Shown piece by piece: positions 7,780-46,732 of a stretch of DNA of 64,000 nucleotides. The DNA lies in NCBI RefSeq assembly GCF_002563715.1, contig NZ_PDJJ01000001.1:1736001-1800000 (forward strand), read 5' to 3'. Numbering within the stretch: the stretch's first letter is position 1; each line of letters begins with the position of its first letter. A program made the translations under genes and the position numbers. Origin of the DNA: Isoptericola jiangsuensis (GTDB taxonomy: Bacteria > Actinomycetota > Actinomycetes > Actinomycetales > Cellulomonadaceae). The notes beneath the pieces were generated by a model. That model made no database searches. It saw only the letters and a program-made list of their open reading frames with translations, and was not told where the DNA came from.

Positions 7780-10886
<3,107 letters not shown>

Positions 10887-37062: not shown

Positions 37063-37851
37063 GTGGCCGTACCGGACGACGGGAGCGTCGTGGGGCGCGC
37101 CCTCGCGATCACGGACGCCGTGGCGGTCGCGGGGGTGGCGACGCTCGGCCAGGTCGCGAGGTCCACGGGGCTGCCGAAGGCGACGGTCCACCGGGTCGCG
37201 CACGACCTGGTCGCCCGTGGCGTGCTGACGCTCGACGACGCGGGCTACGCGCTCGGCCCCCGGCTGGGGTCGCTCGGCGCGCGCCGGACGGGCGGTCGCT
37301 GGCCCGCGTCCGACGTCATGCCCGTCGTCCAGGAGCTCCACGACCGGTCGCGGTCGATGACGTTCCTGCTCGACGTGGACGGCTGGCAGCTCGTCACCGT
37401 GGGCGTGGCGATGGACCGCGCCCAGGCGGCCGAGGTGCGCCGTCGGGGCGGCTGGCCGGCCCAGACGCGGCTCACCGCGGACGACCTCTTCACCGCGGCC
37501 GGACGCGTGCTGCTGGCCGGCTCCCCGGACGTGGTCGAGGGGCTGCTCCGCACCGGTCTGCGGGTCCGCACGCCGCACTCGTCCCGCAGCGCCGTGGCCC
37601 TGTGGCGGCAGCTGGCCCGGGTCCGGGACGAGGGCGCGGCCGTGGAGCGGGACGAGCACAGCGAGGGCTGGTGCTGCGTCGCCGCGGGCGTGACCGGTCC
37701 CGACGGTGAGCTCGCCGGCATCGTGGGCATGTGCGGACGCTCCGGCTCCGTCCCCGTGGACCGCACGCGGTGGGTCGTCGACGCCGCCGTCGAGCTGTCG
37801 CGGCCGGCCCGGCCCGCGCCGGGTCGCGGCTACTCCTCCAGCCAGGCCTGA
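37063..37851 (+). CDS. IclR-family transcriptional regulator
   Basis: About 262 aa. N-terminal winged helix (VAGVATLGQVARSTGLPKATVHRVAHDLVARG) and a C-terminal IclR effector domain with GWCCVAAGVTGPDGELAGIVGMCG. The start is uncertain: GTG at 37063, 37048 and 37090 are all in frame, and GGAGGGG at 37057-37063 gives no ideal spacing to any; 37063 is a compromise. Its 3' end overlaps the convergent ATP-grasp gene by 22 bp. Ligand unknown; autoregulation through the upstream palindrome is likely. Confidence 0.85.
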   Translation: MAVPDDGSVVGRALAITDAVAVAGVATLGQVARSTGLPKATVHRVAHDLVARGVLTLDDAGYALGPRLGSLGARRTGGRWPASDVMPVVQELHDRSRSMTFLLDVDGWQLVTVGVAMDRAQAAEVRRRGGWPAQTRLTADDLFTAAGRVLLAGSPDVVEGLLRTGLRVRTPHSSRSAVALWRQLARVRDEGAAVERDEHSEGWCCVAAGVTGPDGELAGIVGMCGRSGSVPVDRTRWVVDAAVELSRPARPAPGRGYSSSQA

Positions 37852-39062
37852 ACCTGTGCGTCGTCGGGCATGCGGGCGTCGCCGATGACGTGCGGGACGA
37901 CGCGCGAGAAGTAGTCGGTGACGGGGCCGTCGGACTCGCGCACGAGGCACCCGGCGGCGACGCCGCCGATCACCCACGACCCGAGCACGACACGGTTGCC
38001 GTCGAAGTCGGGCAGCGGCACGTACTGCTGGTAGACGAGCGGCTGGTCGCCGTAGTGCCCGTCGTTGACCTGGCGGACGTCGTCGGCGTGGACCTGCACG
38101 TTGTCCCCCTCGCGGCCCCAGAGCGGCTTGGCGACCCACTGGGTCAGCCCGCGCGGCTCGCCCAGGTAGGCGGGCAGGAGGTTCGGGTGGCCGGGGAACA
38201 GCTCCCACAGCACGGGCAGGATCGCCTTGGTGGACAGCAGCAGCTTCCACGCGGGCTCGACCCACTGCACGGGCCGGGCCTCACGACCGGCCAGCACGTG
38301 CGCGCCGAACGGCTCGTGCAGCATGTCCTCCCACGGGTACAGCTTGAACGCGGCCCGCACGGGCAGGCCGAAGTCGTCGACGAACCGGCGGGCGTCCTCG
38401 GCGTCGTCCCAGCCGAGCCCCTGGATGGGGTGGCCGTAGGTGCGCACGCCCGCCATCGCGGCGGTGTCCCGCAGGTAGGTGACCGTCATCTCCTCCTCGC
38501 CGGACTCGTCGACGTCGGAGTGGAAGAAGTGCACGCCCTCCGCGTAGCGGCCCGCCGTCAGGGCGTCGGACCACCAGCGCACGAGGCGGTCGTGCACGGA
38601 GTTCCACTGGTCGCGGTACGGGAAGACGTCCTCGAGCCAGCCCCACTGCGCGACCGCGGTCTCCACGAGCCCGGTGGGGGTGTCCCCGTTGATCTCCAGC
38701 ATCTTGGCGGGCCCGACGCCGTCGGTGACGAGGTCGAAGCGGGCGTACACCGACGGGTCGCCGCGGTCGAGCGACGCCTTCGCCAGGGCGAGGGAGCCGG
38801 ACGGCAGGCGGAGGTCCGCGTCGCTGTACCGGCGCAGCATCTCGCGCGCCGCCTCCAGGCACATGCCGTACAGCTCGTCGGTGGCGGCCTCCAGCCGCTC
38901 CACCTCCGCCATCGTGAGCTCGTACCAGGCCGCCTCGTTCCAGTACGGGACGTCGGTCGTCGTGCCGTCCGGGCCGTCCACCGGGGTGGAGGGGAACACG
39001 AGGCCCTGGGACTCGACCTTCTCCCGCCAGCCCAACCGGGGGGAGATCTCGTGGCGGCGCAT
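37830..39062 (-). CDS. Glutathionylspermidine-synthase-like ATP-grasp (YjfC/YgiC family)
   Basis: 410 aa, ATP-grasp ligase domain only, without the amidase half of E. coli Gsp. Conserved stretches: MLEINGDTPTGLVETAVAQW, KAILPVLWELFPGHPNLLPAY and the ATP-grasp WVAKPLWGREGDNVQV. The E. coli YjfC/YgiC proteins and relatives are predicted to form an amide bond to a peptide or small molecule; the substrate is unknown. The ATG at 39062 overlaps the DUF350 stop (TGATG), and the module upstream holds the DUF350, lipoprotein and K+ channel genes. Confidence 0.87.
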   Translation of the reverse strand: MRRHEISPRLGWREKVESQGLVFPSTPVDGPDGTTTDVPYWNEAAWYELTMAEVERLEAATDELYGMCLEAAREMLRRYSDADLRLPSGSLALAKASLDRGDPSVYARFDLVTDGVGPAKMLEINGDTPTGLVETAVAQWGWLEDVFPYRDQWNSVHDRLVRWWSDALTAGRYAEGVHFFHSDVDESGEEEMTVTYLRDTAAMAGVRTYGHPIQGLGWDDAEDARRFVDDFGLPVRAAFKLYPWEDMLHEPFGAHVLAGREARPVQWVEPAWKLLLSTKAILPVLWELFPGHPNLLPAYLGEPRGLTQWVAKPLWGREGDNVQVHADDVRQVNDGHYGDQPLVYQQYVPLPDFDGNRVVLGSWVIGGVAAGCLVRESDGPVTDYFSRVVPHVIGDARMPDDAQVQAWLEE

Positions 39063-39484
39063 CAGGCGATCGACGCGACCACGACGAGCGCCACGGCGAC
39101 GATGACGCCCGCGCTGACGGCCGCGAGCGGCACGACCGGGCCCGGCACCGTGACCTCCTCGCCCAGGGTGCCGGGCGTCACCGCGTCGACCAGCCGCCAC
39201 GCGAGCGCCTGCAGCAGCACGCCCACGAGGCTGAACGCCACCGTCCAGGCCAGCGCGACCCCGAACGCGGACTCCGCGTTCGTCCAGATCGCCGTGAACA
39301 CGATGAGGCCCTGCGCCACCATCCAGGTGGCGGACACCAGCGCCGCCGAGTGCGAGACGTGCAGGTGCTCGCCCAGCCTGCCGGGGGTCAGGACGTCCAG
39401 CACCTTCCAGGACGCGATGAGCACGAGGGTGCCGAGGACGCAGTACGCGGCGCCGTAGGACAGGGCGGAGAGCAGGTCGATCAC
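39062..39484 (-). CDS. DUF350 (YjfL-like) membrane protein
   Basis: 140 aa with four predicted transmembrane helices. An internal duplication is visible: SWKVLDVLTPGRLGEHL in the first half matches AWRLVDAVTPGTLGEEV in the second. DUF350 proteins recur next to YjfC-type ATP-grasp enzymes; function unknown. Coupled by a 1-bp overlap to the ATP-grasp gene. Confidence 0.85.
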   Translation of the reverse strand: MIDLLSALSYGAAYCVLGTLVLIASWKVLDVLTPGRLGEHLHVSHSAALVSATWMVAQGLIVFTAIWTNAESAFGVALAWTVAFSLVGVLLQALAWRLVDAVTPGTLGEEVTVPGPVVPLAAVSAGVIVAVALVVVASIA

Positions 39485-39521
39485 GTCGAGCCTTTCGAGG
39501 GGACGGGCGGGGGAGGGGAGG

Positions 39522-39905
39522 TCAGGAGCCGATCTTGCCGCTGCCGCCGAAGCCGCCGCGGGTGACCGTGCCGCCGTCGGCGGAGACCCCGCCCTTCGAC
39601 GTCGAACCGGTCAGGGTCGTCGAGTCGTACGTGCCGCGGGTCGTGACGTACGACGTGCCGACCGCCGGCGCCCGCGACCCGGAACGGACGTAGTACCAGT
39701 AGTGCCCGCCCCCGCTGCTCGTGCCGTGGTAGTCGTCGTCGTCCTCTTCGCAGTAGTCGTCGTCGACGCGGAGCTGGGTCTCGGGGTCGACGCAGATCGC
39801 CTGGTTGTCGGCGGCCGGCGCGCAGCCGGTCAGCGACGCGGCGACGACCGTCGTCAGGCCGAGGGCGACGGACCGGCTGCGCATCCGTCGGGTGGACGAG
39901 GTCAC
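39522..39905 (-). CDS. Small lipoprotein, DUF1190-like (YgiB/YjfM)
   Basis: 127 aa. Lipobox LTGC with the acylated Cys near residue 28, then a cysteine pair region (ICVDPETQLRVDDDYC), an acidic run, GGHYWYYVRSG and a Gly/Ser/Thr-rich tail ending TVTRGGFGGSGKIGS. The TRGGFG ending is also near the end of E. coli YgiB as I remember it. Together with the neighbouring DUF350 and ATP-grasp genes this supports a DUF1190-like assignment. Function unknown. Confidence 0.75.
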   Translation of the reverse strand: MTSSTRRMRSRSVALGLTTVVAASLTGCAPAADNQAICVDPETQLRVDDDYCEEDDDDYHGTSSGGGHYWYYVRSGSRAPAVGTSYVTTRGTYDSTTLTGSTSKGGVSADGGTVTRGGFGGSGKIGS

Positions 39906-39951
39906 GGGTTCTCCTCCAGGGAGGTCGGGGCGGGGGCGGGGGCGGGGACGC

Positions 39952-40383
39952 TCACCGGTCGGCGGCGGGCCGGGCGTCGTCGACGTCCGGCACGGGGATC
40001 TCGAGCTTCGCGCACACGCGCACGAGCATCTCCCGGACGTCGTCGACGTCCTCCTTGAGCTCCTCCTGCTCCTCGTGCGAGAACAGGTGGGGGTCCTGGA
40101 CCAGCCGGGCGGCGAGCCGGGCCGTCGCGATCGCCACGAGGGCGACGCTCGACACCATGAGCCACATGGCGAGCGCCCGGCCCGCGACGGTCGCGGGCGA
40201 CAGGTCGCCGTACCCCGTCGTCGTGGCGGTCGTGACCGCCCAGTACAGCGACTCCAGGTAGTCGGTGTGCTCCAGCAACGCGTACGCGGCCGCGCACACC
40301 GCGACGTTGGCGACGATCGCGGCGATCACGCGGCGGCCCGAGTCGCACCACCACGACACCGCCGAGATCATCTGGTGCAGCAC
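39952..40383 (-). CDS. Two-TM potassium channel
   Basis: About 143 aa. Two transmembrane helices flank the selectivity filter TTATTTGYGDLSP (the K+ signature TTxGYGD); a cytoplasmic tail (HEEQEELKEDVDDVREMLVRV) is a probable coiled coil. KcsA-like topology with no RCK domain. The start is GTG 40383 with AAAGG upstream; an ATG at 40371 is the alternative. First gene of the minus-strand module with the lipoprotein, DUF350 and ATP-grasp genes. Confidence 0.85.
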   Translation of the reverse strand: MLHQMISAVSWWCDSGRRVIAAIVANVAVCAAAYALLEHTDYLESLYWAVTTATTTGYGDLSPATVAGRALAMWLMVSSVALVAIATARLAARLVQDPHLFSHEEQEELKEDVDDVREMLVRVCAKLEIPVPDVDDARPAADR

Positions 40384-40453
40384 GCGGGAGCCTTTCGTCG
40401 GACCGGGGAGCCGCCGACGCGTCCGGACAAACCGGACGGACGGCGCGGACCGC

Positions 40454-40483
40454 AGCATAGGGGCGGCGCCCGCGGCTGTCGAA
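40454..40483 (-). promoter_or_regulatory. Candidate promoter of the K+ channel module
   Basis: On the minus strand TTCGAC (40483-40478) and TATGCT (40459-40454) are separated by 18 bp; transcription would start about 65 bp before the channel gene. Weak -35. Confidence 0.4.
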
Positions 40484-40596
40484 CCCCGCCCACCGCCCGG
40501 GATCCGGGTCCTCGCCCCGCCGCGCGAGCAGGCACGACGCGCGCCCCCGCCGGTCCTTTGGCATCGTGAGGACATCCGTCGTCACAGGAGGTCGCG

Positions 40597-41646
40597 GTGC
40601 CCGAGATCCCCTTGCGCGTCCTGGTCGTCGAGGACGACCCCGACACCGCCCTGCTCGTGCGCACGATCCTCGAGCGGCGCGGCGGCATGGACGTCGTCGT
40701 CGCCGGGGACACGACGGCGGCGCTCGCGGCCCTCGACGCGGACCCTCCGGACCTCCTGCTGACCGACATCGAGCTGCCGGGCGGGTCGGGCCTGGACCTG
40801 GCGCGCGAGGTGCGCACGCGCGGTCTGGGTCTGCCGGTGATCGTCATGACGGCGCACGCGAGCGTCGACTACGCGGTGGGTGCGCTGCGCGAGGACGTCG
40901 ACGAGTTCCTCGTGAAGCCGGTCGACTCCGCCACGCTCGTCGATCGGGTCCGTGCCCTGGTCGCCGACGCCCGCCGGCGCGGGACCCCCGCCCTGAAGGT
41001 GCTGGCGGTCGGCGCCCACCCCGACGACGTCGAGATCGGCGCGGGCGGCACCCTCGCGGCGCACCGCGCCGCCGGGGACCTCGTCACCGTGCTCACCCTG
41101 TCGGGCGGCGGCGTCGGCGGCGCGGCGGACGACCGGCGGCGCGAGGCGCAGGCCGCCTCCGACGTGATCGGGGCCCGGCTGGTCCTGCGCGACTTCGAGG
41201 ACACGCGCATGGAGCCGCTCGCCGCGGTCATCGTCGCCGTCGAGGAGGTCGTCAAGGACGTGCGGCCGGACGTGGTGTACACGCACTCGGCGAACGACCG
41301 GCACCAGGACCACCACACGGTCCACCGTGCCGTCGACGTCGCCGCCCGCGGCGTGGCGACCGTCGCGTGCTTCCAGAGCCCGTCGTCGACCATCGACTTC
41401 CGGCCCTCGCGGTTCGTCCCGGTGGACGACCACCTGGGCACGAAGCTCGCGATGCTCGCCGCCTTCGCTTCCCAGGCGCACCGCGGCTACATGGACCCCG
41501 ACGACGTGCGGGCGACGGCACGGTACTGGGCACGGTTCGGCGGCGTGAGCACGTACGCCGAACCGTTCGAGGTGGTGCGGGCGTCGACGGCGCCCGTCGA
41601 GGGTGCACGAGGCCAGGTGGGCGACGGGACCGGGGGTGGGGCATGA
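40597..41646 (+). CDS. Response-regulator receiver fused to PIG-L (LmbE) deacetylase
   Basis: 349 aa. Residues 1-125 are a complete receiver domain: acidic pocket VVEDDPD (Glu12-Asp14), phospho-acceptor Asp57 in LLLTDIELPG, Thr85 in VIVMTAHAS and Lys107 in FLVKPVD. After a short linker a PIG-L domain begins near residue 133 with AHPDDVEIGAGG (His141, Asp143, Asp144, Glu146) and the distal zinc histidines in NDRHQDHHTVHRA. PIG-L enzymes remove N-acetyl groups from GlcNAc-type substrates. The output of the receiver is thus probably deacetylase activity rather than DNA binding. GTG with AGGAGG at 40586-40591; first gene of a six-gene operon ending in a histidine kinase. Confidence 0.9.
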   Translation: MPEIPLRVLVVEDDPDTALLVRTILERRGGMDVVVAGDTTAALAALDADPPDLLLTDIELPGGSGLDLAREVRTRGLGLPVIVMTAHASVDYAVGALREDVDEFLVKPVDSATLVDRVRALVADARRRGTPALKVLAVGAHPDDVEIGAGGTLAAHRAAGDLVTVLTLSGGGVGGAADDRRREAQAASDVIGARLVLRDFEDTRMEPLAAVIVAVEEVVKDVRPDVVYTHSANDRHQDHHTVHRAVDVAARGVATVACFQSPSSTIDFRPSRFVPVDDHLGTKLAMLAAFASQAHRGYMDPDDVRATARYWARFGGVSTYAEPFEVVRASTAPVEGARGQVGDGTGGGA

Positions 41647-42632
41647 CACGGGTGCTGGTGACAGGGGCCGGGGGACCGGCGGGCGTCGCGGTGGTGCGTT
41701 CGCTCGCACGACGTGACGACGTCGAGGTGTACGCCGCCGACATGGACCGCTGGGCGAGCGGCATCTACCTCGTGCCACCCGAGCGGCGACGGCTCGTGCC
41801 GCCCGGCCTCGCCGACGACTTCGTCGACCACGTCGTCGGGCTGTGCGTCGCCGACCGCGTCGAGGTGCTCTTCGCGACGGTCGACGTCGAGCTCCCGCGC
41901 CTGGCAGCGGCACGCGACCGTCTCGCGGCGGTCGGCACCCAGCTCGCCGCACCGTCGCTGGAGACGCTGGAGACGTCGCTCGACAAGCTGGCGCTGGCCC
42001 GGGCGTGCGCGAGCCGCGTCCGGGTGCCGCGCACCGAGCTGCTCGGCGCGTCCGGTGCCGACGAGGGCTGGGACTTCCCGGTGATCGTCAAGCCACGGCG
42101 CGGCGCCGGGTCGCGCGGCGTGCGGCTCGTCACCGACCTCGCCGGGCTGGAGGACGCCCGCGGCACCGAGGACCTGCTGGTGCAGGAGCTCCTGCCGGGC
42201 GACGAGTACTCCGTGGACGTGCTGGCCGACCTCTCCGGGCACGTCGTGGCCGCCGTCCCGCGAGCCCGCCTGCGCGTCGACTCCGGGGTGTCGGTCGCGG
42301 GGGTCACGCTGCACGACGACGAGCTCGTCGCCACCGCCGCCGAGGTCGCCCGCACCATCGGTCTGGCCACGGTGGCGAACGTGCAGCTCAAGCGTGACGC
42401 CGCGGGTGTGCCGGCGCTGCTGGAGGTGAACCCCCGGTTCCCCGGCGCCATGCCCCTGACGATCGCGTCCGGCGTCGACATGCCGTCCCTCACCCTCGAC
42501 GCGGTCCTCGGGCGCCCGGTGCCGCACCACGTCGACTTCCGCGAGATCGCGAACGTGCGGTTCCTCGAGGACCGGTTCCTCCCGGTCGAGGACGTCCTGG
42601 ACCCGCTGCCCACGCGCGAGGAGAAGCCGTGA
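41643..42632 (+). CDS. ATP-grasp ligase (carbamoyl-phosphate-synthase/PylC-like)
   Basis: 329 aa. N-terminal pre-ATP-grasp Rossmann part (RVLVTGAGGPAGVAVVRSLA), then ATP-grasp motifs FPVIVKPRRGAGSRGVRLV, LLVQELLPGDEYSVDVLAD and the metal-binding LLEVNPRFPGAMPLT near residues 260-274. Such enzymes join a carboxylate to an amine or thiol through an acylphosphate. Substrate not deducible. ATGA overlap with the upstream fusion gene and GTGA with the PHP gene. Confidence 0.87.
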   Translation: MTRVLVTGAGGPAGVAVVRSLARRDDVEVYAADMDRWASGIYLVPPERRRLVPPGLADDFVDHVVGLCVADRVEVLFATVDVELPRLAAARDRLAAVGTQLAAPSLETLETSLDKLALARACASRVRVPRTELLGASGADEGWDFPVIVKPRRGAGSRGVRLVTDLAGLEDARGTEDLLVQELLPGDEYSVDVLADLSGHVVAAVPRARLRVDSGVSVAGVTLHDDELVATAAEVARTIGLATVANVQLKRDAAGVPALLEVNPRFPGAMPLTIASGVDMPSLTLDAVLGRPVPHHVDFREIANVRFLEDRFLPVEDVLDPLPTREEKP

Positions 42633-43378
42633 CGTCGGGCGCGCCCGCACCCGAGCCGTCGCGCCCCGCCCCCGATCCGCGGGGCGACCACCACGTCCAC
42701 TCGACGTTCTCCGACGACGCGGTCAGCACCCCGGCGGAGAACCTGGCCGCCGCGGTCGCGCGCGGGCTGACGCAGGTCCGCATGGTCGACCACGTCCGGG
42801 CGACCTCGACCCACGTGCCCGACATGCTCCGGGCGCTCGCCCTGCTCGACCCGCCCGAGGGGCTCGCCGTCCTCAGCGGCGTCGAGGCGAAGATCCTGGA
42901 CACCGCGGGTCGCGTCGACGCGCCGCCCGACGTCCTCGCGGCGCTCGGCACGCCGGCCGGTCCCGGCCGCGTGCTGCTCGCCGACCACCAGCTCCCCGGC
43001 CCCGACGGTCCCTGGAGCCCGCGCGTCGCCCGCGAGCACCTCGACGCCGGGCTGGCCGCCGCCGACGCGGTCGGCATGCTGGTCGACGCGTACGTCGCCG
43101 CCCTGGCCCGCAGCGGCCCGGCCCAGCTCGCGCACCCGTTCTCGATCCTGCCGAAGATCGGTCTGGTCGAGGACGACGTCACCGCCGAGCACCTCGCGGC
43201 GCTCACGGCGGCGCTGCGCGCCGCGGACGGTGTCGTCGAGGTCAACGAGAAGTGGCGCTGCCCCGGTCCTCGGGTCGTCGCCGCGCTGCACGCCGCCGGG
43301 GTGCCGCTGGTGGCGTCCACCGACGCGCACGACGCCCGTGACGTGGGCGCGTACGCGTGGCTCACGGGCGGCCCGTGA
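42629..43378 (+). CDS. PHP-domain phosphoesterase
   Basis: 249 aa. The PHP metal ligands are in place: DHHVHSTFSDDA (first His pair), MVDHVR, GVEAKIL, QLAHPFSIL and the C-terminal STDAHDARD. Members include histidinol phosphatase and nucleoside/sugar phosphatases; in this operon it may dephosphorylate an intermediate. GTGA overlap with the ATP-grasp gene and TGATG overlap with the glycosyltransferase gene. Confidence 0.87.
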   Translation: MTSGAPAPEPSRPAPDPRGDHHVHSTFSDDAVSTPAENLAAAVARGLTQVRMVDHVRATSTHVPDMLRALALLDPPEGLAVLSGVEAKILDTAGRVDAPPDVLAALGTPAGPGRVLLADHQLPGPDGPWSPRVAREHLDAGLAAADAVGMLVDAYVAALARSGPAQLAHPFSILPKIGLVEDDVTAEHLAALTAALRAADGVVEVNEKWRCPGPRVVAALHAAGVPLVASTDAHDARDVGAYAWLTGGP

Positions 43379-44862
43379 TGGGGGACGTGCTGCGGCAGCT
43401 CGTGATCGTGCTGTGCCTGGTGCTCGTCGCCGCCAGCACCCTGCCGGTGCTCGCCGGGATCTACCAGTACCTCCTGCTGCCGCTGCACGGCGTGCGCAAC
43501 CACTGGAAGGACTGCGCGCCCTACCTGCCGCGCGTGGTCGTGGTGGTCCCCGCCTGGAACGAGGGCGCCGTCCTCGAACCCTCCCTCGAACGCCTCATGC
43601 ACCTGGAGTACCCGCCGGACCGGTTGCGCGTCTTCGTGGTCGACGACGCCAGCACCGACGACACCCCCGACGTCACCCGGGAGATGGCGCGCCGCTACCC
43701 GGGCCGCATCCGGCACCTGCGGCGCGATCAGGGCGGTCAGGGCAAGGCGCACACCCTCAACCACGGCATCACGGCGGCCCTCGCCGACGACTGGATGCAG
43801 GCGCTGCTCGTCATGGACGCCGACGTCGTGTACCGGCCGGACTCGCTGCGCCGCATGACGCGCCACCTCGCGGACGAGCGCATCGGTGCCGTCACCGGGT
43901 ACATCAAGGAGGGGTCGGGGAGGCCGGGCACCGTCGCCCGCTTCATCGGGTTCGAGTACATCACCGCGCAGGCCGCCGCCCGCCGCGCGCAGAACGTCCT
44001 GGGCGCCATGGCGTGCCTGGCGGGCGGTGCGCAGCTCCACTCGCGCGCCAACCTGGAGGCCGTGGGCGGCGGCATCGACACCACCACGCTCGCCGAGGAC
44101 ACGTTCACCACGTTCCTCACCCAGCTCGACGGACGGCGCGTCGTGTTCGACCCCACCGCCGTGGTGCTGGCCGAGGAGCCCGAGTCGGTGCGCGCCCTGT
44201 GGAAGCAGCGTCTGCGCTGGGCGCGCGGCAACGTGCAGATCACGTCCCACTTCCGCCGGCTCTGGTTCCGCCCGTCCCGCGACCACCGGCTCGGGTCGCT
44301 GTCGTTCGGGCTCATCTGGTTCTCCGTGTACCTGCTGCCCGTGGCGGCGGTCGCCGCGGCCGCCGGGCTGCTCACGCTGCAGGCGATCGACGCCGTCGCC
44401 GCCGCCACCGTGTTCCGCTCCCTGTGGTGGGTGACCGCGCTGGGGTACGTGTACGTGACGATCCTGTCGCTCGTCCTCGACCCCGACACCGCCCGGCGCA
44501 CGTGGCTCCAGGCCGTGCTGTTCCCCGGGGTGGGGGCGCTGCTGGTCATGGCGGCCGCCTGGGCGCCGTGGCTGTGGCAGGAGTGGATCCCCGACCTGCT
44601 CGGCACCGAGCTCGGCGCCGGCACCCGCACCGCGCTCACCTGGGTGATGTACGCGTGGCCGCTGCTCGCGATGGCGCTGGCCTGGGTCGCGCGCTGGCTG
44701 GAGGGCGCCGTGCGATGGCGCCTGCCCTCCGTCGCCATGCTCTACGTCGTCGGGTTCGGGCCGCTGCTGTGCGCCATCACCCTCGACGCGTACGTCAAGG
44801 AGTGGCGCGGCGCCTCGCGCGCCTGGGACAAGACCGAGAAGACCGGGAGGGTCGTGGGATGA
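43378..44862 (+). CDS. Membrane glycosyltransferase, GT2, processive type
   Basis: 494 aa. N-terminal TM helix, cytosolic GT2 domain with VVVVVPAWNEG, VFVVDDASTDDTP, the DxD-type LLVMDADVV, the catalytic AEDTFTTF and the processive-enzyme motif KQRLRW (Q-x-x-RW), then several C-terminal TM helices. This layout resembles cellulose, hyaluronan and poly-GlcNAc (PgaC/IcaA) synthases. With a PIG-L deacetylase in the operon, a GlcNAc-containing product is a reasonable guess. ATG 43378 chosen; GTG 43375 directly before it is also possible. Confidence 0.88.
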   Translation: MGDVLRQLVIVLCLVLVAASTLPVLAGIYQYLLLPLHGVRNHWKDCAPYLPRVVVVVPAWNEGAVLEPSLERLMHLEYPPDRLRVFVVDDASTDDTPDVTREMARRYPGRIRHLRRDQGGQGKAHTLNHGITAALADDWMQALLVMDADVVYRPDSLRRMTRHLADERIGAVTGYIKEGSGRPGTVARFIGFEYITAQAAARRAQNVLGAMACLAGGAQLHSRANLEAVGGGIDTTTLAEDTFTTFLTQLDGRRVVFDPTAVVLAEEPESVRALWKQRLRWARGNVQITSHFRRLWFRPSRDHRLGSLSFGLIWFSVYLLPVAAVAAAAGLLTLQAIDAVAAATVFRSLWWVTALGYVYVTILSLVLDPDTARRTWLQAVLFPGVGALLVMAAAWAPWLWQEWIPDLLGTELGAGTRTALTWVMYAWPLLAMALAWVARWLEGAVRWRLPSVAMLYVVGFGPLLCAITLDAYVKEWRGASRAWDKTEKTGRVVG

Positions 44863-45059
44863 GCGAGCACGACGACGGGCGGCACGCCCGCCCGCACGGC
44901 GACGACCGGGCCGCCTGGTGGGCCGGCCTCACCGACGACGCCCTCGAGGACGAGACGGAGACGAACCGGCGCGCCGAGCGTCGGCTGCTGATCACCGGCC
45001 CCGCCGTGCTCCTGCTCACGGTGGTGCTCGCCTGGTGGCACGGGGCACCGACCCCGTGA
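44859..45059 (+). CDS. Small single-pass membrane protein
   Basis: 66 aa. His/Asp-rich N-terminus, amphipathic middle (WWAGLTDDALEDETETNRRA) and one C-terminal TM helix (LLITGPAVLLLTVVLAWWH). It is linked by 4-bp overlaps to both the glycosyltransferase (ATGA) and the histidine kinase (GTGA), so it is very likely a real gene. No family recognised; a small accessory subunit of the glycosyltransferase or the sensor is plausible. Confidence 0.72.
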   Translation: MSEHDDGRHARPHGDDRAAWWAGLTDDALEDETETNRRAERRLLITGPAVLLLTVVLAWWHGAPTP

Positions 45060-46732
45060 GCGACTCCCTGCTGCCCCGGCTCGTCCCCGTCGACGCGGGC
45101 TGGCGGGACCGGCGCGCCGTCCTCACGGGCCAGCTCGTGTTCACCGCGATGTACGCGATGGGCTTCCTGCTGGGGCTGCTGCCCTCCGTCGACTTCGCGG
45201 ACGCCGAGTTCGCGGTGGTCGGGGCCGTCGTGACGGTGGTCGCGCTCGGCCTCGCGGTCGGCCTGCCGCGCACGCGGTGGTCCGCGCCCACCGCGACGCT
45301 GCTGCCGTTCCTCGACGTCGCCGCCATCCTGCTGCTCGAGCGCGGCGCGGCCGACCACGCCGTCCTGCTCAACGGCCTCGTGCTCGTCCCCGTGGTCATC
45401 CTCGCCTGGTTGGGTGGCCTGCGGGGCGCGGCGCTCGCGACGCTCGCCTCCGTGATCGCCTCCTACACCCCGGTCCTGTGGGTGGACGAGCTCGCCGACC
45501 CCGCGGGGACCGTCGTCCGGTCGGCGTTCTTCCCCGTGATCTGCCTGGCGCTCGCCGTGTTCGTCGCGCAGGTGGCCGACACGACCCGGGCCGGCGCGAT
45601 CGAGCTGTCCCGGCTGGCGGACGAGCTGCGCGCGTCGCGCGACACCATGGCGGGGCTCATCGACGCCGCGACCGAGCAGGCCATCATCGGCACCGACGCG
45701 GACGGAAGGATCGAGTTCTTCAACCGCGGCGCCGAGCGCCAGACGGGTTGGACCGCGACCGAGGTCCGGGGGCGGTCCGTGCTCGACCTCGCCCTGCCCG
45801 CGGAGATCGACGCCCTGGTGGGCCGGTCCGCGACGACGCCCCGGCCCGGCGAGACACCCGAGCGGGCCCGATGGCGAGGTGCGCTGGGGGAGGCCGCGCA
45901 CGGCGGGGTACGCGAGGTCGACCTCACCCTGGTCCGGCGTGGCGAGGTCGTCGGCGCGTCGCACGTCGTGGTCACCCGCCGCGGGGGAGCGGGCGACCGC
46001 GGCTATCTGGTGATCGCCAGCGACGTCACCCGGGAACGCGAGATCGAGCAGGCGAAGAGCCGGTTCATCGGCTACGTCAGCCACGAGCTGCGCACCCCGA
46101 TCTCGTCCGTCCTGGGGTACCTCGAGCTCCTCGATCTCGACGGGGACGGCCTCACCGCCGAGCAGCGGGGACACCTGGAGGTGATCGACCGCAACGCCCG
46201 GCGCCTGCTCCACCTCGTCGACGACCTGCTCCTGACCGCGCAGGTCGACTCCGGGAACTTCACCGTCCACCGGCAGCCCACCGACCTGCGCGACGTGGTC
46301 GCCGCCGCCGCACGGTCCGCGGCCCCCACCGCCGCCGCGGCCGGCATCGAGCTCGTGGACGACGACACCGGACCGGTGCCGCTGCACGGGGACCCGGTGC
46401 GGCTCGCCCAGGCGGTCGACAACCTCGTCTCCAACGCGCTGAAGTTCACGCCGTCGGGCGGTGCCGTCACGCTCCGCGCCGAACGGGTCGGCGACGATGC
46501 ACGTCTCACCGTGCAGGACACCGGCCCGGGGATCGCCCCCGAAGACCTCCAGCACCTCACCGAACGCTTCTACCGGTCGCGCCGGGTGAACCGGGAGCGG
46601 GTCCCCGGCGTCGGGCTCGGGCTGGCGATCACCCAGGCGATCGTCGACGCGCACGGCGGGACGATGCGCGTCGACAGCGTCGTCGGACGGGGCACGACGT
46701 TCACGGTGACCCTGCCGACGGCGCCCGGCTGA
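45056..46732 (+). CDS. PAS-domain membrane sensor histidine kinase
   Basis: 558 aa. Five to six TM helices fill about residues 20-175, a short coiled coil follows, then a PAS domain (about 200-320: ATEQAIIGTDADGRIEFFN). HisKA has the H-box SHELRTPISS with His near residue 343; the HATPase has N-box DNLVSNALKFTP, G1 DTGPGIAPED, F-box ERFYRS and G2 GVGLGLAITQAIV. No separate response regulator follows; the only receiver in the operon is fused to the PIG-L deacetylase. Its stop abuts the convergent channel gene with no gap. Confidence 0.93.
   Translation: MSDSLLPRLVPVDAGWRDRRAVLTGQLVFTAMYAMGFLLGLLPSVDFADAEFAVVGAVVTVVALGLAVGLPRTRWSAPTATLLPFLDVAAILLLERGAADHAVLLNGLVLVPVVILAWLGGLRGAALATLASVIASYTPVLWVDELADPAGTVVRSAFFPVICLALAVFVAQVADTTRAGAIELSRLADELRASRDTMAGLIDAATEQAIIGTDADGRIEFFNRGAERQTGWTATEVRGRSVLDLALPAEIDALVGRSATTPRPGETPERARWRGALGEAAHGGVREVDLTLVRRGEVVGASHVVVTRRGGAGDRGYLVIASDVTREREIEQAKSRFIGYVSHELRTPISSVLGYLELLDLDGDGLTAEQRGHLEVIDRNARRLLHLVDDLLLTAQVDSGNFTVHRQPTDLRDVVAAAARSAAPTAAAAGIELVDDDTGPVPLHGDPVRLAQAVDNLVSNALKFTPSGGAVTLRAERVGDDARLTVQDTGPGIAPEDLQHLTERFYRSRRVNRERVPGVGLGLAITQAIVDAHGGTMRVDSVVGRGTTFTVTLPTAPG

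Follow-up and report, generated by a model that had tools for sequence, protein, structure and literature searches.

A six-gene operon in the actinobacterium Isoptericola jiangsuensis probably specifies a synthase-dependent exopolysaccharide system in its single-membrane form. An amino-sugar unit would be edited in the cytoplasm, and a histidine kinase would set the deacetylase. The operon lies on the plus strand at positions 40597 to 46732 of the window, by which we mean a 64,000-nucleotide stretch of contig NZ_PDJJ01000001.1 (assembly GCF_002563715.1, positions 1,736,001 to 1,800,000). In order, it encodes a receiver domain fused to a PIG-L de-N-acetylase, an ATP-grasp ligase, a PHP-family phosphoesterase, a membrane glycosyltransferase of family GT2, a small membrane protein, and a sensor histidine kinase (Table 1). 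From these genes and their relatives, we infer an uncharacterized variant of synthase-dependent exopolysaccharide biosynthesis that occurs in several phyla and carries a novel control and editing module.

RESULTS

The six genes form a conserved unit

All five junctions between the six genes overlap by 1 to 4 bp, with the strings ATGA, GTGA, TGATG, ATGA, and GTGA read 5' to 3' along the operon. Checking the reading frames and rereading each junction thus bore out the initial annotation, which had claimed such overlaps throughout. Its domain calls also held: every named domain was found with conserved catalytic residues, and the PHP protein alone fell slightly below its Pfam gathering cutoff (24.2 versus 26.4 bits). 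Pfam scores elsewhere in the operon were 94 bits for Response_reg, 86 for PIG-L, 119 for ATPgrasp_Ter, 114 for Glyco_tranf_2_3, and 109 for HATPase_c.

TABLE 1 Features of the operon in the window
Feature	Position	Strand	Basis or remark
AGGAGG, ribosome-binding-site-like	40586..40591	+	upstream of the GTG start of the first gene
Receiver (aa 8-119) and PIG-L/LmbE de-N-acetylase (aa 136-249) fusion, 349 aa, predicted soluble	40597..41646	+	
ATP-grasp ligase, PRK12767/ATPgrasp_Ter type, 329 aa	41643..42632	+	Pfam, NCBIfam
PHP-family phosphoesterase, 249 aa	42629..43378	+	Pfam (just under cutoff), NCBIfam, metal-ligand positions
Membrane GT2 glycosyltransferase, polysaccharide-synthase-like, 494 aa	43378..44862	+	Pfam, motifs, AlphaFold2 model, Foldseek
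Small single-pass membrane protein without known family, 66 aa	44859..45059	+	one hydrophobic segment
Membrane sensor histidine kinase with PAS, HisKA, and HATPase_c, 558 aa	45056..46732	+	Pfam

The genes also travel together. Among 150 genomes of the family, the receiver-PIG-L protein was matched in 34 (E ≤ 1e-40), PHP in 15 (E ≤ 1e-30), GT2 in 15 (E ≤ 1e-100), and ATP-grasp in 16 (E ≤ 1e-60). The same 15 genomes carry PHP, GT2, and ATP-grasp, and one more (G315, locus L056) carries ATP-grasp but, at the thresholds used, neither PHP nor GT2; all 16 fall inside the 34. Such co-occurrence is as expected of a unit, and because the genomes are related, we attach no P value to it. In the 296 genomes drawn from the phylum, 9 matched the receiver-PIG-L protein at E ≤ 1e-20, and 2 of these, the window's own included, matched over both domains.

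For neighborhood comparisons, we used 118 loci, consisting of 38 stretches around receiver-PIG-L matches and 80 others that ranked best among 545 confirmed relatives, a sample that leans to close relatives and gives a lower bound on taxonomic spread. Four duplicate loci were dropped before counting. The 114 remaining loci comprised 74 with a receiver and 40 without by tblastn, the latter including two with a degenerate receiver (L121 and L124) and some cut by contig ends. We counted gene presence by tblastn because a simple gene finder missed or misplaced the starts of genes in GC-rich loci. The 74 distinct receiver-PIG-L loci span actinobacteria, proteobacteria, and one myxobacterium. ATP-grasp, GT2, and PHP were all present in 36 of them. 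Another 4 loci had ATP-grasp, GT2, a histidine phosphatase, and a TPR protein; 2 had ATP-grasp, GT2, and the TPR protein with no histidine phosphatase counted; and 15 had a set with a distant GT2. The others carried ATP-grasp alone (3), ATP-grasp and PHP (2), ATP-grasp with histidine phosphatase and TPR protein (2), PHP and TPR protein (1), or none of these parts (9). When 14 flanking window proteins were searched (E ≤ 1e-20), matches were found in three loci (L044, L070, and L071), with distant ABC-F matches in four others. The block is therefore kept across genera with different flanks, which, along with the co-occurrence, makes chance adjacency untenable. Far from being neighbors in one genome only, an outcome that the initial annotation had allowed for, the genes co-occur and adjoin across genera and phyla.

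A putative membrane synthase with a channel-like partner in Gram-negative relatives

The window GT2 carries the motifs of processive synthases as DD (residues 89-90), DAD (147-149), ED (240-241), and QRxRW (277-281), and these motifs (D, DxD, xED, and QxxRW) are invariant across 27 aligned GT2s. Of the NCBIfam families, PgaC/IcaA scored highest with the window protein, and all 27 sequences matched it; assignment as a PgaC/IcaA poly-N-acetylglucosamine (PNAG) synthase was nevertheless rejected, given 127.9 bits versus an equivalog cutoff of 422.3. With an AlphaFold2 model of the GT2 (pLDDT, the predicted local distance difference test score, of 89), Foldseek ranked PcManGT first, followed by hyaluronan, cellulose, and chitin synthases. 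The 66-amino-acid protein encoded next matched no family in Pfam, NCBIfam, or PADLOC, and its tblastn matches were confined to close relatives. By eye, a small open reading frame with one hydrophobic stretch lies 3' of the GT2 gene in 7 of 21 other loci inspected. Two loci have unusual surroundings at the GT2 gene: L104 (13059-16005) contains a tandem GT2 pair that is 60% and 55% identical to the window GT2, and in L118 (294-3355), a BcsB-like gene and a gene for a family 81 glycosyl hydrolase (GH81) immediately precede it.

In Gram-negative relatives, the GT2 is accompanied by a protein in which TPR repeats are combined with an extended beta region at the C terminus. Nine of 10 diderm receiver-PIG-L loci (L106, L109, L110, L115, L117, L118, L119, L120, and L122) have a gene for it. 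The exception is L107, where the contig stops about 0.6 kb beyond the receiver-PIG-L gene. None of the 64 actinobacterial receiver-PIG-L loci has it; loci were grouped by record titles or by membership of the window's family. In L122 (820-2148), which is on a metagenome-assembled contig, the TPR/barrel gene has one internal stop. An AlphaFold2 model of the L119 protein (mean pLDDT of 87) places TPR helices at residues 35 to 211, followed by some 15 strands between residues 217 and 441. Against the PDB, this model matched BcsC, the cellulose export channel, first (E = 8.9e-13), OmpG second, and PelBC third, while NCBIfam gave weak PgaA and BcsC matches to the diderm protein, far below the cutoffs. 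As modeled, the protein has the anatomy of an exopolysaccharide secretion channel. A TPR and beta-barrel outer membrane channel, the mark of synthase-dependent exopolysaccharide systems in diderms, is thus present in the diderm relatives, and none is expected in the actinobacterial window organism. By analogy, a GT2 kept without a channel in single-membrane bacteria would be behaving as expected of a synthase-dependent system. There is a published parallel, since the accessible text of PMC8669469 describes NfrB in a Gram-positive bacterium without NfrA.

The initial annotation had proposed a signal-controlled pathway for a surface glycan, glycolipid, or small molecule. The BcsC/PelB-like channel protein of Gram-negative relatives favors the surface glycan and leaves the other two products less likely. 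For a membrane glycolipid, the GT2 would add an N-acetylhexosamine (HexNAc) to a lipid, PIG-L would deacetylate it, and ATP-grasp would aminoacylate it, altering surface charge. The leading Foldseek match to PcManGT would suit this scheme, as would the Pfam name of PIG-L, which refers to action on N-acetylglucosamine (GlcNAc)-phosphatidylinositol. A related route is established in Pseudomonas aeruginosa, where, in the accessible text of PMC12713373, the glycosyltransferase and deacetylase of gpgSDF yield glucosamine-phosphatidylglycerol, that is, an amino sugar on an envelope molecule. However, gpgSDF is a three-gene operon for a transferase (GT4), a deacetylase (COG3233), and a flippase (PMC12713373), families unlike those of our operon. 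In addition, no flippase family was among the Pfam matches of the six operon proteins, and a lipid product sits poorly with a polysaccharide-type channel protein at 9 of 10 diderm loci. We consider the glycolipid unlikely.

Candidate enzymes for editing an amino sugar

The PIG-L motifs AHPDD (140-144) and HQDH (236-239) are invariant in 12 aligned receiver-PIG-L sequences, and no hydrophobic segment was found in the window protein. Among NCBIfam models, BshB1 was nearest to the PIG-L part (85.1 bits versus a cutoff of 182.5). MshB was absent from the best 25 of 97 NCBIfam families for the window protein, and the homologue at L133 scored 31.4 bits against MshB (cutoff, 224.35). Membership in either BshB or MshB was rejected on these equivalog cutoffs.

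The ATP-grasp protein belongs to Pfam PF15632, the Ter-operon ATP-grasp family (118.6 bits versus a gathering cutoff of 29.1), and K150, E261, N263, and R265 are invariant in 37 sequences. A Pfam search limited to the six operon proteins found no further Ter families. The nearest solved structure, 2pn1, carries just a generic name and therefore gives no acyl group for the ligase. In the PHP protein, H22, H24, H55, E86, H120, H169, D232, and H234, which we take to be the metal ligands of the family, are invariant in 37 sequences, the window's included; a sequence search of the PDB returned no match to it.

Three phosphatase families replace one another beside these genes. PHP was found in 45 loci (43 distinct), a histidine phosphatase in 6, and a HAD hydrolase in 7, and no locus had two of them. 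The histidine phosphatase adjoins ATP-grasp in all 6 of its loci, which is the position of PHP in the window. The HAD hydrolase occurs in PIG-L relatives without a receiver, and its 7 loci all carry UDP-GlcNAc 2-epimerase as well, a pointer to a HexNAc substrate. The mutual exclusion suggests one chemical step performed by three unrelated enzyme families, and their interchange at a single position gives a strong lead to a missing chemical step.

The HAD-type loci (L129, L130, L132, L143, L144, L146, and L158) combine the receiver-less PIG-L with a distant ATP-grasp, UDP-GlcNAc 2-epimerase, the HAD hydrolase, and GT2, the last matching more weakly in L143 and L158. Some of them encode an exosortase-like protein, which Pfam matched in L132 and L129; the corresponding part in L144 had no Pfam match and shares one reading frame with ATP-grasp. 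Three further loci (L131, L133, and L138) encode a PIG-L whose N-terminal region is hydrophobic, with the ATP-grasp and GT2 genes immediately after it, and in these PHP, histidine phosphatase, and HAD were all unmatched. In L138, a kinase and a response regulator lie downstream of the three genes. At L106, a gene for a low-molecular-weight tyrosine phosphatase (Pfam LMWPc; 7885-8349, minus strand) stands just past the TPR gene and on the opposite strand from it.

The same enzymes could instead serve a small-molecule pathway. Mycothiol and bacillithiol are made by a logic of glycosyltransferase, PIG-L deacetylase, and amino-acid ligation that the operon might share. A glycosyltransferase would form GlcNAc-X or its phosphate, a phosphatase would remove the phosphate, PIG-L would deacetylate, and the ligase would add an amino acid, so that the activity set, phosphatase included, would parallel mycothiol synthesis. 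That BshB1 is the nearest model to the PIG-L part fits as well. Yet this match reaches less than half of its cutoff, and to our knowledge, the glycosyltransferase and ligase families of those thiol pathways differ from the operon's. In place of thiol enzymes within the MshB and BshB cutoffs, the operon and its relatives have a membrane GT2 with synthase motifs and a channel partner, and an intracellular thiol would hardly call for a TPR/beta-barrel protein. The set is also patchy, with PHP and GT2 in 15 of 150 family genomes. A thiol-like product therefore seems rather improbable to us.

A kinase and receiver as candidate regulators of the deacetylase

The residues that mark a response regulator, the phospho-acceptor Asp (D57), the switch Thr (T85), and the Lys (K107), are invariant in the 12 aligned receiver-PIG-L sequences, 11 of which are 47 to 70% identical to the window protein. 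Of the 74 distinct loci, 60 have a histidine kinase match within 9 kb of the receiver-PIG-L gene, and in 57 of these the two share a strand; at L106, outside the 60, a hybrid kinase of its own adjoins the receiver-PIG-L gene. A cyclic di-GMP control domain on the synthase, which is common but not universal in synthase-dependent systems, was not found, with no PilZ, MshEN, or GGDEF in the six operon proteins (Pfam, E ≤ 0.001). A survey of archaeal two-component systems holds that receiver-enzyme fusions put metabolic activity under environmental control (PMC5847659); PIG-L, LmbE, and deacetylase are words that the paper nowhere uses. On an archaeal contig from a metagenome-assembled genome (L154, 10001-11275), a PIG-L match is followed by a receiver match, possibly the same pairing in reverse order.

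DISCUSSION

A model for edited exopolysaccharide synthesis

In the system that we propose, the membrane GT2 would polymerize and extrude a sugar chain, and the small membrane protein may be its partner in this. Because a synthase-made chain exits through the synthase, cytoplasmic enzymes can reach only the activated sugar or primer, and for this reason our model has PIG-L, ATP-grasp, and the phosphatase all act ahead of the GT2. PIG-L would strip the N-acetyl group off a HexNAc precursor, and ATP-grasp would reacylate the amine thus exposed, probably using an amino acid or some other carboxylate. The phosphatase, which is PHP in the window and a histidine phosphatase or HAD in other loci, would clear phosphate from an intermediate. 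Control would come from the histidine kinase, rather than from cyclic di-GMP, through phosphorylation of the receiver fused to PIG-L. The signal would then tune the extent of sugar editing, rather than or besides gene expression, and with it the charge or bulk of the polymer.

A more specific version is possible, although we hold it only tentatively. Under this donor-editing scheme, a two-component phosphorelay, not cyclic di-GMP, would switch the polymer from an N-acetylated to an N-(amino)acylated state or back through the receiver-fused cytoplasmic PIG-L, acting before polymerization; the scheme would operate in actinobacteria as well as in several lineages of proteobacteria, and one required step would be supplied by any of three unrelated phosphatase families. 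If true, exopolysaccharide synthases would have a second control logic, in which kinase input acts directly on a metabolic enzyme, and there would be a route for placing new acyl groups on a sugar before incorporation. The proposal also gives a testable function to receiver-PIG-L fusions and to the whole uncharacterized gene set.

Several observations weigh against the exopolysaccharide reading, and the main one opposes a strict pathway. Eight genomes (those of L065, L075, L076, L077, L101, L103, L108, and L111) have receiver-PIG-L without ATP-grasp (E ≤ 1e-8) or GT2 (E ≤ 1e-20). Four of the eight belong to the window's family and are 99 to 100% complete, a figure that applies to these four only, and in 7 of the 8 a histidine kinase match lies within 9 kb of the receiver-PIG-L gene. 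Either the protein has a role without the others, or these genomes hold remnants. In the 15 distant-GT2 loci, the GT2 is only 32 to 37% identical, lies on the opposite strand, and is without PHP; an ATP-grasp match of 28 to 33% identity accompanies it on its strand in 14 of them (L062 being the exception), or in 13 when the search was repeated against a larger database. None of PHP, histidine phosphatase, or HAD was detected in L106 or L115. Phospho-control appears not to be universal, given that in two PHP-type loci, L121 (Occultella) and L124 (Serinicoccus), the N-terminal domain of PIG-L looks by eye like a degenerate receiver; the PIG-L gene there stands at about 9.4 to 10.6 kb, and these cases suggest loss of phospho-control with the domain retained. 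The best Foldseek E value of the GT2 was to a mannosyltransferase, not a polymer synthase. GH81, an endo-beta-1,3-glucanase family, hints at a glucan rather than an amino-sugar polymer in L118, and together with the BcsB-like gene, it may mean that the backbone differs between branches. Finally, the pairwise identities of PIG-L, ATP-grasp, PHP, and GT2 correlate (Spearman coefficients of 0.78 to 0.90; 37 full sets, being the window and 36 loci), but this co-divergence is inflated by shared ancestry and so is supporting only.

The eight genomes, with a kinase match nearby in all but one, would suit a different arrangement, in which receiver-PIG-L and kinase form a separate signaling pair for another GlcNAc substrate and ATP-grasp, PHP, and GT2 merely share the operon. 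Such independence is hard to square with the presence of the whole set in 36 of the 74 loci, and of ATP-grasp, GT2, and the TPR protein in 6 more, or with the joint divergence of the four proteins. We searched the whole genomes behind the 17 loci with a missing part: 6 have a close GT2 (E ≤ 1e-100), 2 have a distant GT2, and the other 9 gave no GT2 match; ATP-grasp was present in 8 of the 17. In particular, two Leifsonia loci (L092 and L126) have no GT2 nearby, yet these genomes keep a GT2 of 54 to 55% identity elsewhere, again unlike what separate function would lead one to expect. We regard a separate pair as very improbable.

Relation to characterized systems

The layout of the operon resembles those of the PNAG, cellulose, and Nfr systems, although the PgaC cutoff was failed and the cyclic di-GMP parts were not found. 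Exopolysaccharides such as cellulose, PNAG, and the Nfr glycan are chemically edited outside the cytoplasm. In PNAG synthesis (PgaABCD/IcaADBC), a small membrane partner, PgaD/IcaD, is encoded next to the GT2, as is the small protein of the operon; the window GT2 is nearest to PgaC/IcaA, though far below cutoff, and the TPR protein of a diderm relative weakly matches PgaA. Deacetylation of PNAG is extracytoplasmic, whereas the operon's PIG-L is predicted to be cytoplasmic, and we know of no counterpart of the ATP-grasp or phosphatase in the PNAG system. Cyclic di-GMP is a common switch for the synthases of these three polymers (PMC8669469, accessible text). The same text describes for NfrBA of Escherichia coli, which makes the N4 glycan, a membrane GT2 with DxD, TED, and QxxRW, a TPR-containing outer membrane beta-barrel partner, and a link to UDP-GlcNAc 2-epimerase; the operon's counterparts to the latter two are in its diderm and HAD-type relatives, respectively. 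In contrast to the operon, NfrB is under cyclic di-GMP control through MshEN, and the accessible text of PMC8669469 reports no PIG-L, ATP-grasp, or receiver fusion for NfrBA.

Some precedent for the role of the ligase may come from CA_C2186-2199 of Clostridium acetobutylicum, itself a prediction only, where an ATP-grasp aminoacyl ligase, glycosyltransferases, and a HAD phosphatase are predicted to make a surface polysaccharide (PMC4000134). Unlike the operon, that cluster has a nucleoside diphosphate-sugar pathway with neuraminate synthase and a nucleotidyltransferase, and PMC4000134 nowhere uses the words PIG-L or deacetylase. A paper on lipocone proteins (PMC12419801) was considered as a match and rejected, since its accessible passages deal with other gene sets. 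Our literature search, whose coverage left out most subscription journals, found no paper describing the combination, in agreement with the initial annotation, which knew of no characterized pathway that has it.

Genomic surroundings of the operon

The genome (4.04 Mb, one contig) contains 5 PIG-L matches. Anti-phage defense was rejected as a function of the operon, PADLOC having given just a weak partial-receiver match of 21 bits. Just upstream, on the minus strand and divergent from the operon (window positions 37830 to 40575), a gene for a GSP_synth-family (pre-ATP-grasp) protein is grouped with genes for a DUF350 membrane protein, an ion channel, and a small protein that had no match. In two loci from the window's genus (L070 and L071), the distant-GT2 architecture sits between SUF, formate-transporter, ABC-F, and SURF1 genes (SUF and SURF1 identified by eye), which are the flanks of the window operon. 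The site looks like one at which surface-polymer gene sets are exchanged.

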